Source of the DNA: Methanococcus aeolicus Nankai-3
Lineage (GTDB): Archaea; AGJL01; Methanococci; Methanococcales; Methanococcaceae
Reading direction: 5' to 3'
Length of the DNA: 64,000 nt
NCBI RefSeq assembly: GCF_000017185.1
Contig: NC_009635.1
Coordinates: 1,387,189-1,451,188, forward strand
The notes beneath the pieces are model-generated. The model was not told the origin of the DNA and searched no databases. It saw nothing but the letters and a program-made list of their open reading frames with translations. A program made the translations under genes and the position numbers. Of this stretch, positions 15,191-62,153 are shown piece by piece (position 1 is the stretch's first letter; each line of letters begins with the position of its first letter).

Positions 15191-15955
15191 TTATTTTTCT
15201 GCTTTTCTATATTCGGTTTCAAAAGTTTTATCATATAACTTAGAGTATTCATACCGTTTAGGGTCTAAAACCTCACCTACAATTATAAGTGCTGTTTTTG
15301 TAATTCCTTCCTCTTTTACCTTTTTAGCTATGTTTTTTAATGTTCCTCTGATTATTTTTTCATCTTCCCATGTTGCATGATAAACTACGGCAACAGGAGT
15401 ATCCAACTCATAACCTTCCAATAGCTCATTTACAACCTTATCAATCATGCCAACGCCCAAATAAATAGCCATTGTGGCCTTATGTTTTGCCAAATCGCTT
15501 ATTTTTTCGGATTGTGGTTTTGGGGTTCTACCTTCTGGTCGAGTTATTATGATGGTTTGGGAAACATCTGGAAGTGTTAATTCTGCCTGTAATGAGCTCA
15601 TAGCACCAAATAGGGAAGATACACCGGGAACAATATCTACGCCAATATCATATTTTTTTAATTCGTCCATTTGTTCTTTAATTGCCCCATAAATTGAGGG
15701 GTCTCCAGTATGCACCCTAACAACATTTAAACCATTATTTACTCCATCTACTATTACGCCAATTACTTCCCCAAGATGCATTGTAGCACTGTTGTAGATT
15801 TTGGCATTTTTTTTATTGTAGTTTAAAACTTCTTTATTTACCAAAGAACCAGCATAAATAATTATGTCTGCATTTTCAATAGCTTTTGCTCCTCTTACAG
15901 TTATTAAATCGGGAGCTCCTGAACCAGCTCCAACTATTGTAATTTTTCTATTCAT
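15191..15955 (-). CDS. cbiF: Cobalt-precorrin-4 C11-methyltransferase
   Basis: SAM-dependent methyltransferase of anaerobic cobamide synthesis. The 254-residue protein has the tetrapyrrole-methylase fold signatures VGAGSGAPDLITVRGA (N-terminal glycine-rich loop), RVHTGDPSIYGAI and PGVSSLFGAMSSLQAELT, which distinguish CbiF/CobM from other family members. Its start overlaps the 3' end of the PAPS-reductase-like gene by 8 bp (15948-15955), so the two are translationally coupled. The product would support the corrinoid used by the methyl-H4MPT:coenzyme M methyltransferase. Confidence 0.94.
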   Translation of the reverse strand: MNRKITIVGAGSGAPDLITVRGAKAIENADIIIYAGSLVNKEVLNYNKKNAKIYNSATMHLGEVIGVIVDGVNNGLNVVRVHTGDPSIYGAIKEQMDELKKYDIGVDIVPGVSSLFGAMSSLQAELTLPDVSQTIIITRPEGRTPKPQSEKISDLAKHKATMAIYLGVGMIDKVVNELLEGYELDTPVAVVYHATWEDEKIIRGTLKNIAKKVKEEGITKTALIIVGEVLDPKRYEYSKLYDKTFETEYRKAEK

Positions 15956-17273
15956 TAGTCACACACCTTTTTTCTATATTTCTTCTAAGTTCTCTCATTT
16001 TAGGGGGGAGTTCGTCCCATCTCCAAAATCCCCTTAATATTTCTTCTTCGTCATAGTCTTCTTTTCTTAACTGGCATGCCCACTTATCCCATAATTTTGG
16101 GTGGAGCTCCTTTACTCTTAAAAATTCACTATTAAGTGCCGCTGGACACATATAACAACCAATTCTTTCAAATCCTTCTTCATACATTGGATTATACAAT
16201 ACATCATTTAAAAATATGTAGCTCCAAATGTCAATAGAATTCCAATCAAGAATTGGGAATAAATTGGTTTGGGCATCAATAAATCCGCTCTGTCTTGTAT
16301 ATTCTAAATTTGCCCGTGCAAAACTTTCTAATTTTCGGGAGCCGTCTATTGTCAATATTTTTTTGTTTGGGTAATGTTCCTCAAAGAATTCTTCCAATGG
16401 TATCAATTTACATGTGCTATTGCACCATCTATCGTCTTTTGTTGGTATGCCTTCTTCATCCACTTCATCCCAGAAATTATCTCCATCTATTGTATGTAAA
16501 TTTAAATCATATTTTTTTGCGAAATCTTTTACATATTGGTTGGTTTCTGGATATTCAAGCCCTGTATCTATAAATAATACATCCATATCCTCCATAATTT
16601 CGGTAGCTAATAAAGTTGATACGGCACTATCCTTTCCACCACTAAAAGATACATTTATTACATAATTTTTATTTTCGTATTTTTGAATATATTCTACAAG
16701 AATATCTTTTGAATGTTGAACAAGTTTATTTATTCTTTCTTTGTTATCTTGTAGGTAGTTTTCTATTTTTTTAATTCTTATTTCATCATTTTTCTTTTGG
16801 AGGTCTTTTACTTTAATTCTGTTATCTCTTTTTATTCCCACTCCCAAAAATTTCCCCATATCAATACCAACAAAATAGTCCGTATTTTCTACAATGGTTT
16901 TATATTCATCAATATTTTCAATATATTCTTCTTTTAAATATTTTCCTTTTAATCTTCTTTTTGTTGGCACCAATTTTAATTTTGGACTTTCAAGATAATA
17001 ATAATATGGCGAAGGTGTAAATTTCCATTCTAAATCTAATAAATCGAACTCCATAGTTCCTATTTGAACATTTTCGTCCAAATAAACTCTTTTTCTATAA
17101 TCATCTCCTGCCAATTTCTCCAATAATATTAAATCATCATAATTGAAGTTTTTATTTGTTAATTTATTTAATATATCAATTTCATATTTTGATGCAAATT
17201 TTGTATCCTCTTTAAATTTTGAGAACATTGTTTTATCCATATTGTTATCATTATTATTGTAATCACTATACAT
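15948..17273 (-). CDS. PAPS reductase-family (PP-loop) protein with N-terminal extension
   Basis: A 441-residue protein. The C-terminal half carries the PP-loop SFSGGKDSAVSTLL, the LFIDTGLEYPET segment and a GCYMCPAA cysteine pair typical of archaeal phosphoadenosine phosphosulfate reductase-like proteins (MJ0066-type). The N-terminal 170 residues are an archaeal extension. Methanogens of this group generally do not use sulfate, so real PAPS reduction is uncertain; a sulfur-transfer or nucleotide-activation role is possible. ATG 17273 has AGTGAT upstream. It is coupled to cbiF. Confidence 0.85.
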   Translation of the reverse strand: MYSDYNNNDNNMDKTMFSKFKEDTKFASKYEIDILNKLTNKNFNYDDLILLEKLAGDDYRKRVYLDENVQIGTMEFDLLDLEWKFTPSPYYYYLESPKLKLVPTKRRLKGKYLKEEYIENIDEYKTIVENTDYFVGIDMGKFLGVGIKRDNRIKVKDLQKKNDEIRIKKIENYLQDNKERINKLVQHSKDILVEYIQKYENKNYVINVSFSGGKDSAVSTLLATEIMEDMDVLFIDTGLEYPETNQYVKDFAKKYDLNLHTIDGDNFWDEVDEEGIPTKDDRWCNSTCKLIPLEEFFEEHYPNKKILTIDGSRKLESFARANLEYTRQSGFIDAQTNLFPILDWNSIDIWSYIFLNDVLYNPMYEEGFERIGCYMCPAALNSEFLRVKELHPKLWDKWACQLRKEDYDEEEILRGFWRWDELPPKMRELRRNIEKRCVTNE

Positions 17274-17328: not shown

Positions 17329-17870
17329 AAACCGAAAGGTTTTTGTTTTTTATTTGGGTAAAAAGATTTGCATTATCTCTTCTGTTCTTTTATTATGTAG
17401 AGATATATTTAATTTCTTTTTATTTAACTTATTCCGCAAGAAGTCCCCTTCCGTAAGGGAGGGGATGAATTATGATAAAAACCTTCGGTTTTTATATATT
17501 TCCTTCGCTTCGCTCGGAAATGCGGGCAAAACATTTATATGGTGGTATTATCACATATAACTATGTAGTTGTAGAGGCATCTACACTATTATCATCTGAG
17601 AAGGCTGAGAGTGCTACTCAGATGATAATCTACTTTATACCAATTCTTTTTGAGTTCTCTACAACGGTATTAAGTCAGGGCTTGAACAAAATCCTTCGGA
17701 TTTTGTAGTTCGCAAATCAAAGATTTGCGATGGGAGAGTCCGTTGTGCCTGCGGAGGGGAAACCTCTACCCAGAGTTATACCTTATATAAAGGTAATCTT
17801 TGGGCAAGTATCCCCTATGAGTCAGGAAGCCCCTCCCGTAAGAAGGGGTAATTCACTTGTATTTCTATGT
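17329..17870 (+). mobile_element. Decayed IS200/IS605-like remnant with structured right end
   Basis: The 666-bp gap between two minus-strand genes is more G+C-rich than its surroundings and full of hairpins. There is a CCCCTTCC/GGGAGGGG stem at 17445-17464 followed by ATGAATT, and a matching CCCCT...AGGGG stem at 17830-17848 followed by TAATTCAC, the latter resembling IS605-type right ends. A plus-strand reading frame from 17730 encodes MSQEAPPVRRG close to this end, which resembles the C-terminus of TnpB proteins as I recall them. No TnpB catalytic region or TnpA remains. A degraded element or a TnpB-derived solo end is the likeliest reading. Confidence 0.55.
17568..17665 (+). ncRNA. Possible structured RNA (omega-RNA-like or other) inside the IS remnant
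   Basis: GTTGTAGAG (17568-17576) pairs perfectly with CTCTACAAC (17657-17665). Inside that outer stem a perfect 13-bp stem joins ATTATCATCTGAG (17588-17600) to CTCAGATGATAAT (17617-17629), and TGTAGA/TCTACA is an alternative small hairpin at 17571-17584. TnpB guide RNAs lie at the 3' end of tnpB next to the right end, which is where this sits. Transcription is not shown by the sequence. Confidence 0.35.
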
Positions 17871-17939
17871 CTCATAATATTAATATTTCTGCTTTTTCTA
17901 TTTTTTCTGTTAGGATGCATTTAAATTTTCCATATTCCA

Positions 17940-19346
17940 CTACACTCTACATTCAAGATGTTTTATAAAATCTCCTTTTTCTGGTATATATGCACCACAG
18001 GCGAATTTATGTCCTCCACCACTACCGCCCATTTTTTTAGATGCATAATTTATAGCATCGGCGAGATTTATATCTTCGGCAAATGATAATAATTTTGGAC
18101 ATCGTGCAGAAACTTTATATCCATTATCCAATTCCCCCAATGCAAATATGGGCTTTTTCCAATCGACTTCCTCTATTGAATAACTCATTCCAGCAACAAT
18201 ACCAATAATATGCCCTTCAATCATACCTTTTTCTACTTCAAAATATTGAAATTTGCTTGTCTGAATTATTTCAACTTCGTCTTTAATATATTGAAGTGAT
18301 TTTGAGAGATTTCTTTTATGGTTATTTAATCTTGTTATCATTTTAGAATAATATTTGTCCCTATCTCCATTTAATACTTGTAGTGGTGTTTCATAATCTC
18401 CATATCTCGAACAAGCATTAATACAGGTAGAAAACTCCTCCAAATTCCTAAATGGTGTTTTTATTTCCTCCTGTTTAAACTCGTAGCTATTACCAAATAT
18501 AACTTTTGGAAGGAATTTCGCCCATGAATTGGGAACATATTTATTGCATTTATTTAAAAATTCACTTCCCAATATTCTTTTTTCCTCAAATGTTAAATCG
18601 CATAAACTTTCTTTTGCTACAATATTTAAATTATGTTTTCTATTTATATTATTTATAAAATTGATAATTCTCGAATCATTATTTAATAAATCAGTCCTAA
18701 CATCTGAAAAATACTTTATTGATGCGAATAATGGTTTAGTATGCTTTCCGTAAAATTGTAAATCTGGAAATGCCACTATGTCCCCCAATTCAATGGCATC
18801 TTTTAATATTGTTTCATTTAATCCATTTAATTTGCCTTCTAAATTCTGAACATCTCCAACAGCTCCTAAAATGGCATATTTCGCTAAATCTGTATATCGT
18901 GGATTACATGTTTTAGCAAATAAATAGCACACACCAGCACCGCAAATCTCTTTTCCTCCATCTATATTATTATTCCAAGGATTTACATTTATTATATTTT
19001 CTGGTATTTGCGTTTTTGCTGTTATATGATGGTCTAAAATTATTATATGGGGAATTTTGGTTTTTTCGTTTTTTAATTTCTCTTTAATTAAATTAATTTG
19101 CCCACTTCCTAAATCTGCAAAAATAATTAAATCATAATCATTAAAAGGAATTTCATTTATTGTATCTGTTCCCAACTGCTTTAAAAATCTGAATTCTGCG
19201 TTTATATTTAATTTATTCATTAATTCCTCTAAAATTACTCTGGAAGTTATGCCATCTGTATCAATATGTGTATATACTAATATATTATTGTTTCTATTTT
19301 TTCTTAATATTTTGACTGCCAATTTTAAATTTTTAAGGAGCTCCAT
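17940..19346 (-). CDS. RecJ-like DHH/DHHA1 family phosphoesterase
   Basis: A 468-residue protein with the DHH phosphoesterase motifs [19 protein letters not shown] and IILDHH, and the C-terminal DHHA1 glycine-rich [13 protein letters not shown]. This is the archaeal RecJ/GAN group, which provides single-strand exonuclease activity at replication forks or in repair. It lacks the longer C-terminal domains of bacterial RecJ. ATG 19346 is preceded by AGGTGTAATT. Its 3' end abuts the IS remnant. Confidence 0.88.
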
Positions 19347-38516: not shown

Positions 38517-39182
38517 AAAATACATAAAATCGGAGATTTTGAATTTTCCACGCTGTGAAAAAATAGGATAAACTATATATACCATATATGATGATAAGTA
38601 TAACTATATTACTTAACTCATTATATTGTTAATTTCATACTATTTTTATGGTCATAGCAGGGAAGGCTAATATTCCTGATGTTTTTAATAAATTTAAAAA
38701 TTACGGCGTATTCATTAAATCACATCAAAGATGTGAGCCATAAAAACTCGAAGAGTTTTTATTTAATTTAAAGTATTATTGTAATGTCTTATTATAATAA
38801 TTTTTATGACCATATAGTTGAAACATATGGAATTATGGTGTGTTTAAAAAGGTTCTTATTAAAGTCCAAAATAAAAGGCTTTAAATATTCTCAATAGTAA
38901 ATCAACAGACATCACAGCGAAGCGTGGATTAAACAGAACCGTAGGTTTTATTTAATCGTATTGAATATTTATGATATTAAACTGTCGATTCACTATATCA
39001 TTGCAAGGAGCTCTTGATACACCACATATATAATTATTTATAATTTGATTTTGTTTTTGAGGTCTTATATATAATTATATTTTAATATAATGATATTTAA
39101 TATGGACGATGCTATTTCAGGCATAAATAACATAAAATAAGAAATGTTAAACGGATAAATAAATTAATAAAAGGTTGATTAA
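38517..39182. other. Repeat-rich intergenic region before the DEAD-box helicase
   Basis: 666 bp without a convincing ORF. It holds two modular palindromes back to back, TCACATC-AAA-GATGTGA (38720-38736) and AAAAACTC-GAA-GAGTTTTT (38742-38760). A TIR-like element (38894-38997) follows. The region between 39000 and 39180 is plain and could be the long leader of the helicase mRNA. No RNA gene was recognised. Confidence 0.5.
38894..38997. repeat. TIR intergenic element, ATAGTAAATCAACAG variant
   Basis: Left end ATAGTAAATCAACAGAC; the reverse complement of the right end reads TATAGTGAATCGACAGTTT, so about 13 of 16 positions pair. About 104 bp. Inside is a CAC-GC hairpin with GAA loop (ACAGCGAAGCGTG). 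A TATGTTC-like half element (TGTTTAAAAAGGTTC) starts farther left at 38841. Confidence 0.5.
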
Positions 39183-40969: not shown

Positions 40970-42238
40970 ATGGAAAAAATAGAAAAAGGAAAAAAAGTAA
41001 TGGTTGTAAGTGCCATATTAACATTATTTGTAGCAATTTTAAAAGGAATTATTGGGTATATTTCTGGAAGTGTTGCACTTATTGCAGATGCATTGCATTC
41101 TTTATCTGATGTATTGGGCCCTATTGCAGTGTATGTGGGGCTAAAAATTTCCCAGAAAAAACCAAATATGAAATTTCCATATGGGTATAGTAGGGCGGAA
41201 ACTCTTGCATCTCTATTTGTGTCATTTATAATATTTTTAACGGGAGTAGAAACGCTAAGGCAATCTATTGATAAATTTTTTAATCCGTCTCCAATATCTC
41301 ATTATGGTGCAGTAATTATAGTAGTATTAATTTCTATTGGTATCACATATTATTTATACAAATATAAGACAAAAGTAGGTGTCGAAATAGGTTCCGATGC
41401 CATGATTGGCGAAGGAGCTCACTCTTTGGTGGATGCATATACCACAGTTGCCATATTATTTGCTGTTGCTGGTTCTTATATGGGATATTATATAGTGGAA
41501 CCAATTGTTGGAGGAATAATAAGTTTTATAGTAATAGGATTGGGCTTAAAAATGGTTAAAAATGATATTTATACCTTAATGGATTTTTGTGATGGGGAAA
41601 CCATCAACGAAATAAAAAAAATAACATTAAGTGTTAAGGGGGTCGAGGGAGCTCACAATATAAAGGCACGAAAATCTGGACCATTTATTCATTGTGATAT
41701 GCACATTGAAGTAGATGAGGAGCTCCCTTTTAAAGTGGCACATGAAATTTCGGAAACCGTTGAAAAAGAGATAAAGAATAATATACAGAATATTAACGGC
41801 ATTATTATTCATACAGACCCAATAATGAAAAAAGATGCCATAATAGCAATTCCAATAATGGTAAATGATAATGAAGTAAATTTAATGGAAACCAACAATG
41901 GCATAAATAAAACCACAATAACCAATTCACACATGGAAAAGGCATTTAATTACAAAATAAATGACAAATTTGCCACTGCAAAATATTTTTTAATTATTGA
42001 AATGGATTGTGATATTATCAACGGATATAGAATTATAGAAAATACATTGAATAAATTGAATAGAAAAAAAGCCATGGCAATTTTTGATTTATTATATTCG
42101 TATGATGTAAATACCGTCATTGTTAAAAATATCGGGGCCGGCATGGATAATACTCTTAGAAGTAGAGGTATTAAAATTATTAAAACCGATAAAGATACAC
42201 CAAAAGATGCATTATTGGATATCAAAAAAATAAAATAA
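40970..42238 (+). CDS. Cation diffusion facilitator fused to a NifX/NafY-like domain
   Basis: A 422-residue protein. Residues 1-200 contain the six-helix CDF transporter with metal-site motifs DALHSLSDVLG and GEGAHSLVDAYTT, and residues 200-285 the cytoplasmic CDF dimer domain (CDMHIEVDEELPF). The last 130 residues match the dinitrogenase iron-molybdenum cofactor-binding fold (AIPIMVNDNEVN; HMEKAFNYKIN; TVIVKNIGAGMDNTLRSRGI). Export of Fe, Zn or Mn with a metal-sensing or metallocluster-binding module is plausible. The ATG at 40970 is clear. Confidence 0.88.
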   Translation: MEKIEKGKKVMVVSAILTLFVAILKGIIGYISGSVALIADALHSLSDVLGPIAVYVGLKISQKKPNMKFPYGYSRAETLASLFVSFIIFLTGVETLRQSIDKFFNPSPISHYGAVIIVVLISIGITYYLYKYKTKVGVEIGSDAMIGEGAHSLVDAYTTVAILFAVAGSYMGYYIVEPIVGGIISFIVIGLGLKMVKNDIYTLMDFCDGETINEIKKITLSVKGVEGAHNIKARKSGPFIHCDMHIEVDEELPFKVAHEISETVEKEIKNNIQNINGIIIHTDPIMKKDAIIAIPIMVNDNEVNLMETNNGINKTTITNSHMEKAFNYKINDKFATAKYFLIIEMDCDIINGYRIIENTLNKLNRKKAMAIFDLLYSYDVNTVIVKNIGAGMDNTLRSRGIKIIKTDKDTPKDALLDIKKIK

Positions 42239-58784: not shown

Positions 58785-59075
58785 TATAGTTAATCTTCAA
58801 TAATTGTCCCTTATCCGGCTTATTATTAAATAAAATCTCTTCGAGATTTTATACAAAATCGAAGATTTTGTAAACAAATTTCTTCATTTATTTGTAATGT
58901 AGTAAGTGATTTTAGCTTTTAATAGCATCTCTAAATTTTTCTCTGAAAAATTTATACGACCTTAAAAATTCCTCCGGAATTTTGGGTCGTAAAAACTCCT
59001 TCGGAGTTTTGAGATCGTAAAAATCGCTTTGCGATTTTGAGATGGTTTAGCGAAAAAGACCGAAGATTGACTATA
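58785..59075. repeat. Long TIR element carrying internal modular palindromes
   Basis: The ends TATAGTTAATCTTC and GAAGATTGACTATA match the 14-bp ends of the copy at 44654 (one mismatch). At 291 bp it is more than twice the usual length because it holds at least five internal hairpins of the modular kind (58832-58850, 58854-58870, 58965-58983, 58992-59010, 59020-59038). A solo left end (TATAGTAAATCGACGAAC) lies just before it at 58747. Confidence 0.7.
58832..59038. repeat. Cluster of modular palindromes
   Basis: Five palindromes in 207 bp: AAAATCTC-TTC-GAGATTTT, CAAAATC-GAA-GATTTTG, AAAATTCC-TCC-GGAATTTT, AAAACTCC-TTC-GGAGTTTT and AAAATCGC-TTT-GCGATTTT. All have a 3-base centre; stems differ in the inner bases but share the outer AAAA/TTTT. 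The last three are joined by related spacers (GGGTCGT, GAGATCGT). Confidence 0.75.
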
Positions 59076-62038: not shown

Positions 62039-62153
62039 TGGGGATACTGGGATTTGAACCCAGGTCTAGGGATTTCTCCTGCATTAGGTTTTAGTCCAAA
62101 TCCATATAGGCACTTGGAGTCCCCAATGATAGGCCAGGCTACACCATATCCCC
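62039..62153 (-). tRNA. tRNA-Trp (CCA anticodon) with a 40-nt intron
   Basis: On the minus strand the acceptor GGGGATA pairs with TATCCCC, and CTGGGTTCAAATCCCAG is the T arm. Removing 40 bases (62074-62113) from between positions 37 and 38 gives the anticodon arm GGGGA-CTCCAAA-TCCCT, anticodon CCA. The mature length is 75 nt, without an encoded CCA end. The intron position is the standard archaeal 37/38 site and can fold into a bulge-helix-bulge. It lies between the MEMO and mfnE genes on the opposite strand. Confidence 0.93.

Follow-up and report, generated by a model that had tools for sequence, protein, structure and literature searches.

Within the window analysed here, a 64,000-nucleotide stretch of Methanococcus aeolicus Nankai-3 DNA, positions 17428–17856 of the plus strand are occupied by a single, protein-free copy of an element that is almost certainly a non-autonomous member of the IS200/IS605 group, of the kind known as PATE or MITE. 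Its cargo is probably a stand-alone TnpB guide RNA, served by TnpB, and for mobility by TnpA, acting in trans. At the level of sequence this reading is supported by ends that match those of full elements, a TTTAA site and a TTCAC terminus, a TATA-like box and stem-loop that take the place of tnpB, a retained omega-RNA (reRNA) module, dispersed copies, and TnpB proteins encoded in the same genome.

A preliminary description of the locus had proposed an IS605/TnpB derivative lacking a transposase. This proposal is borne out, as the ends match those of resident TnpB elements and neither an intact transposase nor TnpB lies inside; the ends shared with full elements equally bear out its suggestion of a MITE. 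The two terminal hairpins and the outer 9-bp and inner 13-bp stems that it listed are all found at the positions given. The extent of 17329–17870 has to be redrawn: the element begins directly after TTTAA and finishes with TTCAC, because copies in its own genome share these ends (Table 1).

Table 1. Features of the family-1 element, its surroundings and its relatives in the M. aeolicus genome (G000); positions refer to the window except where G000 is named.
Feature	Position	Strand	Remark
PAPS-reductase-domain protein gene, flanking	15948–17273	-	syntenic in relatives without the element
TTTAA target, presumptive TAM	17423–17427	+	outside the element; TTTAA/TTAA 5' of the printed copies, solo as well as full
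Whole family-1 element	17428–17856	+	ends common to five full TnpB elements of its own genome and to solo copies in three genomes
Left end (LE), near-terminal hairpin 17445–17464	17428–17537	+	similar to LE of tnpA-tnpB element
TATA-like box TTTATATG	17534–17541	+	TTTATAT invariant in 8 of 8 family-1 copies
Conserved 5' RNA domain in place of tnpB	17564–17667	+	not tnpB-derived
Main 5' stem-loop	17588–17629	+	13-bp stem, 2-nt bulge, inner GGC..GCT hairpin, loop motif GGCTGAGAG (17603–17611)
Omega-RNA module, homologous to tnpB 3' end and RE	17668–17856	+	interrupted at 17682–17730
49-bp insertion, two micro-palindromes, in loop of omega hairpin 1	17682–17730	+	not present in G0_1378k or in either G011 copy
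Residual tnpB C-terminal frame (GESVVPAEGKP...SQEAPPVRRG)	17733–17853	+	not a functional gene
Right-end (RE) hairpin and terminal TTCAC	17830–17856	+	
Flanking DNA in guide position, TTGTATTTCTATGTCTCATA	17857–17876	+	position after UUCAC, following PMC11043419
DHH-family protein gene, flanking	17940–19346	-	syntenic in relatives without the element
Full TnpB elements, G000	317.9–319.7k; 479.6–481.0k; 627.5–629.0k; 42.6–44.1k; 949.4–950.9k		
Second family-1 copy, G000	1378.6–1378.9k		
Family-2 copies, G000:C1	588787–588990; 92010–92400 (588.8k, 92.3k)		L037, L038; further copies L119, L120, L122, L123, L125

Subterminal palindromes, a trait of full IS605-type elements, lie near both ends and form the terminal hairpins CCCCTTCCGTAAGGGAGGGG (17445–17464) and CCCCTCCCGTAAGAAGGGG (17830–17848). 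TTCAC is the right terminus of nearly all copies, and in those printed the left end follows directly on TTTAA or TTAA. The precedent is TnpB7 of Sulfolobus islandicus, for which TTTAA has been shown experimentally to be the TAM, NTTAA being tolerated, and whose guide starts directly after the UUCAC that closes the reRNA (PMC11043419). The fit of the window element to this scheme is one of position alone, with TTTAA at the left end and TTCAC followed by flanking DNA at the right. No Rfam family fits the element in either gathering or E-value mode.

A search of the genome for related IS605/TnpB elements, as the preliminary description had proposed, returned 25 DNA matches to the window element, which resolve into five tnpB-bearing elements, one more copy of the window element and two copies of a second family. 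The five full elements measure ∼1.45–1.74 kb and carry the same left and right ends on either side of a tnpB gene. Identity to the window element reaches 98% at the left end and 95% at the right, and 90–98% over the ends as a whole; the 98% figure is attained by the left end (17423–17537) against the tnpA-tnpB element at 317.9–319.7k. The TnpB frame is open in three of the five, with 424, about 402 and 365 amino acids. The longest scores 314 bits, above the cut-off, with the guided_TnpB profile and, when aligned to solved TnpB structures, shows the catalytic residues D, E and D. The only tnpA of the genome is frame-broken, split over two frames; no intact copy is present in G000, no tnpA turned up in G011 or G012, and G003 holds only a fragment at a contig end. 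The preliminary description had made its reading depend on kin in other Methanococcales, and related solo elements are indeed found in other genomes of this order. Family-1 solo copies number two in G000 and, in two sister species, two in G011 and four clear ones in G003 (Methanothermococcus sp. MAG S013_52), all with different flanks and a fixed target motif. When the exact 21-mer of the loop was searched over GTDB contigs, matches were found only in the Methanothermococcus MAG.

In place of tnpB, the interior of the element carries the TATA-like box, from which archaeal promoter spacing predicts a transcription start near 17564, and a 5' domain of ∼100 nucleotides that at the level of the model is confined to three genomes. 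The inner stem of this domain, ATTATCATCTGAG (17588–17600) with CTCAGATGATAAT (17617–17629), is the conserved one; the outer 9-bp stem, GTTGTAGAG (17568–17576) with CTCTACAAC (17657–17665), is peculiar to the window copy. The inner stem is the sole perfect stem of at least 13 bp with a loop of 3–20 nucleotides in the 64 kb, and one such stem occurs in 10 first-order Markov shuffles. Folding of the RNA 17550–17870 yields z = -4.7 relative to dinucleotide shuffles, and the hairpin alone z = -4.9. Descent of the interior from tnpB was considered and rejected, since the matches are short and weak, of 30 nucleotides only. The notion of a bare decayed remnant, put forward in the preliminary description, is not supported: the interior consists of the conserved promoter-like box and stem-loop of a dispersed family, not of leftover tnpB. 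The stem-loop probably defines or protects the 5' end of the RNA.

Homology to the last ∼138 nucleotides of the tnpB elements begins at ∼17668, ∼138 nucleotides before TTCAC. The reRNA of ISDra2 is ∼150 nucleotides long, including a guide of ∼16 nucleotides, and the module thus has the size of that reRNA scaffold (PMC8612924). A covariance model, R1, was trained on seven sequences, among them the window copy minus its 49-bp insertion, and gives this copy, itself part of the training set, 139 bits over 17719–17856. The omega-RNA-like fold of the preliminary description is upheld by this score and by the alignment of the module to resident tnpB genes at their 3' end. In G000, R1 also recovers the five full elements and four solo copies; in distant archaea it finds further cases, some linked to TnpB and some solo. 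Two-sided changes occur at 36 of 41 omega pairs among 31 distinct sequences, in an alignment fitted to the model, and none of 500 shuffles reaches the scores; sliding the pairing partners destroys the pairing. Within family 1 and the resident elements alone, no pair is changed on both sides. Family-1 copies from different species share bases, TTAAGTC and GGGGAAACC, that are unlike those of the resident full elements, a point against simple gene conversion.

The window copy may be an inactive, decaying member of its family, as suggested by the 49-bp insertion and by a 3' hairpin that is imperfect here and intact in other copies. The open frame that had been noted from 17730 does match the C-terminus of TnpB (78% over 41 amino acids); it overruns into the flank as far as 17924, and its ATG was created by the palindromic insertion.

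Family 2 consists of ∼200-bp elements, longer where micro-palindromes have inserted, and is represented by two copies in G000, by copies in G011 and G012, and by several in G003. Its layout comprises the same type of left end, a TATA-like box, a 6-bp hairpin ∼25 nucleotides downstream, a compact omega core and TTCAC. Between G000 and G012, genomes of different genera, the 148-bp body shows 100% identity and the flanks differ. Judged by these sequences, family 2 has spread recently and carries nothing but an omega RNA behind a presumptive promoter. No TnpB-linked parent of this family is present in 36 Methanococcales genomes. Terminal-only elements of ∼40–50 bp were also observed (L121, G012:C1:∼167032–167090; L124, G000:C1:∼41700–41744), in which a left-end hairpin is fused to the right end or a right-end hairpin stands alone after TTTAA; they resemble the 52-bp terminal-only PATEs of Haloquadratum.

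If the cargo is a guide RNA, a transcript would start near 17564, cross the omega module and run into flanking DNA, so that the first ∼16–20 nucleotides after TTCAC would serve as guide. TnpB made by the full elements would bind this RNA in trans, and TnpA, likewise made in trans, would peel the element out. The rejoined site, TTTAA plus guide, would then be a target for TnpB, to be cut and repaired from a sister copy still bearing the element; by this cut and repair the MITE would exploit the peel-paste-cut-copy cycle without encoding any protein. Whereas the 5' end of TnpB-linked reRNA in full elements arises through processing of the tnpB mRNA, the window element has no tnpB and a separate presumptive promoter, and here the stem-loop probably stands in.

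A simpler account, to which a modest probability is attached, sees a plain PATE or MITE: an IS605 element with an internal deletion, moved by TnpA acting in trans, with the omega module as passive right-end baggage and the interior as neutral filler. PATEs derived from IS605 elements are known, such as the core-deleted haloarchaeal HqIRS71 of Haloquadratum, which keeps a segment of the tnpB 3' end (PMC3119063). TnpA requires the ends alone, the window copy is partly degenerate, and retention of the right end could partly reflect transposase recognition or descent. However, the layout of promoter, stem-loop and omega recurs across families whose interiors are otherwise unrelated, and the interior is not leftover tnpB. 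Omega and stem-loop are ∼95% identical between species and the linkers 82–88% (window copy against G11a), a modest difference over short stretches. Moreover, terminal-only copies without omega exist, as at 167.0k in G012, and the ends alone are accordingly separable from omega.

It is improbable that the 5' domain has an unrelated function, for example as an antisense or regulatory RNA in TnpA/TnpB dosage control or as a decoy drawing TnpB away from the full elements. Among the copies examined, only solo elements have the domain, and it is linked to a promoter-like box; the omega RNAs of the full elements would also face competition for TnpB from a solo omega RNA whose guide is not theirs. Most copies, however, keep an intact omega core, which is no less consistent with use than with titration. 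Least probable is a domesticated guide-like RNA with a host function at this locus, such as repression of a target gene, which the preliminary description had entertained and to which the preserved stems of the 5' domain lend some colour. The DHH and PAPS-reductase genes adjoin in G003, G011 and others, separated by a short spacer and with the element absent. The window copy is therefore not a conserved host RNA, and an orthologous domesticated RNA is rejected on account of the empty syntenic site. In addition, other copies sit in unrelated flanks, the copy itself shows decay, and for the flank in guide position G000 yields no further TAM-linked match with up to 2 mismatches over the 20 fixed bases searched.

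The 5' stem-loop extends beyond the Methanococcales. In G037, a distant archaeon, four solo omega elements carry an AAGGCTGARAG stem-loop upstream of the omega core, and the sole TnpB match above the Pfam cut-off is a short fragment; these solo omega RNAs (L085, L091, L097, L107) are possibly orphaned guide-RNA elements. A further element, ∼320 bp long, carries the related motif GGCTGTAAGAGCT; it occurs on two plasmids of Sulfolobus, pARN4 and pHVE14, as well as in Acidianus tailed spindle virus. On the plasmids it displays TTTAA, a TATA-like box, a 5' stem-loop with GGCTGTAAGAGCT, an omega module (26.7 bits with R1) and the end TAGTTCAC, and its left-end hairpin is identical to that of the window element at 29 of 30 positions. 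From its size and host, the plasmid and virus element is most likely SMN1, a 320-bp nonautonomous element of S. islandicus whose mobilisation by the ISC1733 transposase has been observed, as cited from Berkner & Lipps 2007 in PMC3718332. The viral copy (KU645528, 17252–17565; L210) is partly annotated as hypothetical protein D57, and an SMN1-like element lies at a second place in the same record too.

In an alignment of the stem-loop core registered by hand and by eye, 92% of cells pair and 6 of 9 pairs show two-sided changes. A motif-plus-stem filter finds seven of the eight family-1 copies (the eighth, G3_C19a, has a diverged loop and falls outside it), two of the four G037 copies and the SMN1-like copies; the GGCUGNRAG stem-loop passes this filter in none of seven full elements, and 0.9 Mb yields a handful of unrelated weak matches. 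The window family thus shares the SMN1-type layout of GGCUGNRAG stem-loop, omega module and TTTAA/TTCAC. Homology to the SMN1-like element is not full-length, being confined by blastn to 30 bp of the left end, with the remainder recognised via the structure model only and the interior sequence otherwise diverged; the window element is therefore described as SMN1-like in layout, not as a member. This kinship of layout had escaped the preliminary description, as had the resident TnpB elements, the second solo family and the TTTAA target. Pattern scans of viral contigs gave 46 stretches, none an omega RNA by R1, and were attributed to chance. Haloarchaeal plasmid matches to the family-2 core are omega cores, several beside unannotated C-terminal remnants of tnpB, and were not counted as solo. 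It is conceivable, at somewhat less than even chances, that small IS605-type MITEs of archaea, ranging from Methanococci to Sulfolobales and including those of one virus, constitute a class of promoter-driven solo omega-RNA genes, defined by GGCUGNRAG, that hijack TnpB. Such a class would comprise RNA-only selfish elements held at their site by TnpB in trans, with a stem-loop absent from tnpB-linked omega RNAs.

The window element resembles haloarchaeal PATEs in its near-terminal palindromes, lack of transposase, IS605-type origin and targeted insertion (PMC3119063, PMC10544981). It differs in lineage, and the accessible parts of these papers describe no defined promoter, 5' stem-loop and omega layout for those elements. 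The PATE of virus HRTV-DL1 is strongly transcribed (PMC10544981); it was not located within the stretch of that virus inspected. In position, length and a hairpin preceding the guide, the omega module is like the reRNAs of ISDra2 and S. islandicus TnpB7 and the sotRNAs of Halobacterium (PMC8612924, PMC11043419), and TnpB7 additionally shares the TTCAC end and TTTAA TAM (PMC11043419). The accessible literature, which does not include the original paper, does not describe SMN1 as a guide-RNA gene. Nor does it describe a layout of promoter, stem-loop and solo omega; most subscription papers lay outside the search, and a prior description is possible. A trans-encoded omega RNA, stand-alone and separate from its nuclease, serves IscB of Ktedonobacter racemifer, which belongs to the IscB/Cas9 lineage and not to TnpB. 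These omega RNAs are not known to be carried on a MITE.

Close relatives occur in other methanogens, and Sulfolobus plasmids and a virus hold an element laid out in the same way; many 'miniature transposons' of archaea may accordingly be genes for guide RNAs that depend on proteins made by other elements. If so, the persistence and spread of very short IS605-derived MITEs and PATEs where intact TnpA is scarce would be explained: a MITE that kept its own guide RNA could be copied back after excision by the TnpB of its larger relatives. On this reading, methanogens and Sulfolobus should make omega RNAs that act in trans and whose guides and TAM are known. It would also tie the SMN1-type element, familiar for a long time, to guide-RNA biology of TnpB, and it makes the 5' stem-loop a signature by which more such elements could be found.

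Two further observations concern the window at large. Micro-palindromes with stems of 7–10 bp, varied arms and mostly 3-nt loops (TTC, GAA or AAA) number 17, compared with 5–13 in shuffles, and include those at 17475–17495, 17686–17706, 17710–17730, 38720–38762 and 58830–59038 (five there). They sit in the loops of IS605 ends, left and right (L031–L050, L119–L125), cluster in intergenic DNA and resemble small dispersed palindromes. Finally, a 115-nt Rfam tRNA match on the minus strand at 62039–62153 was missed by ARAGORN; its length suggests an intron-containing tRNA.
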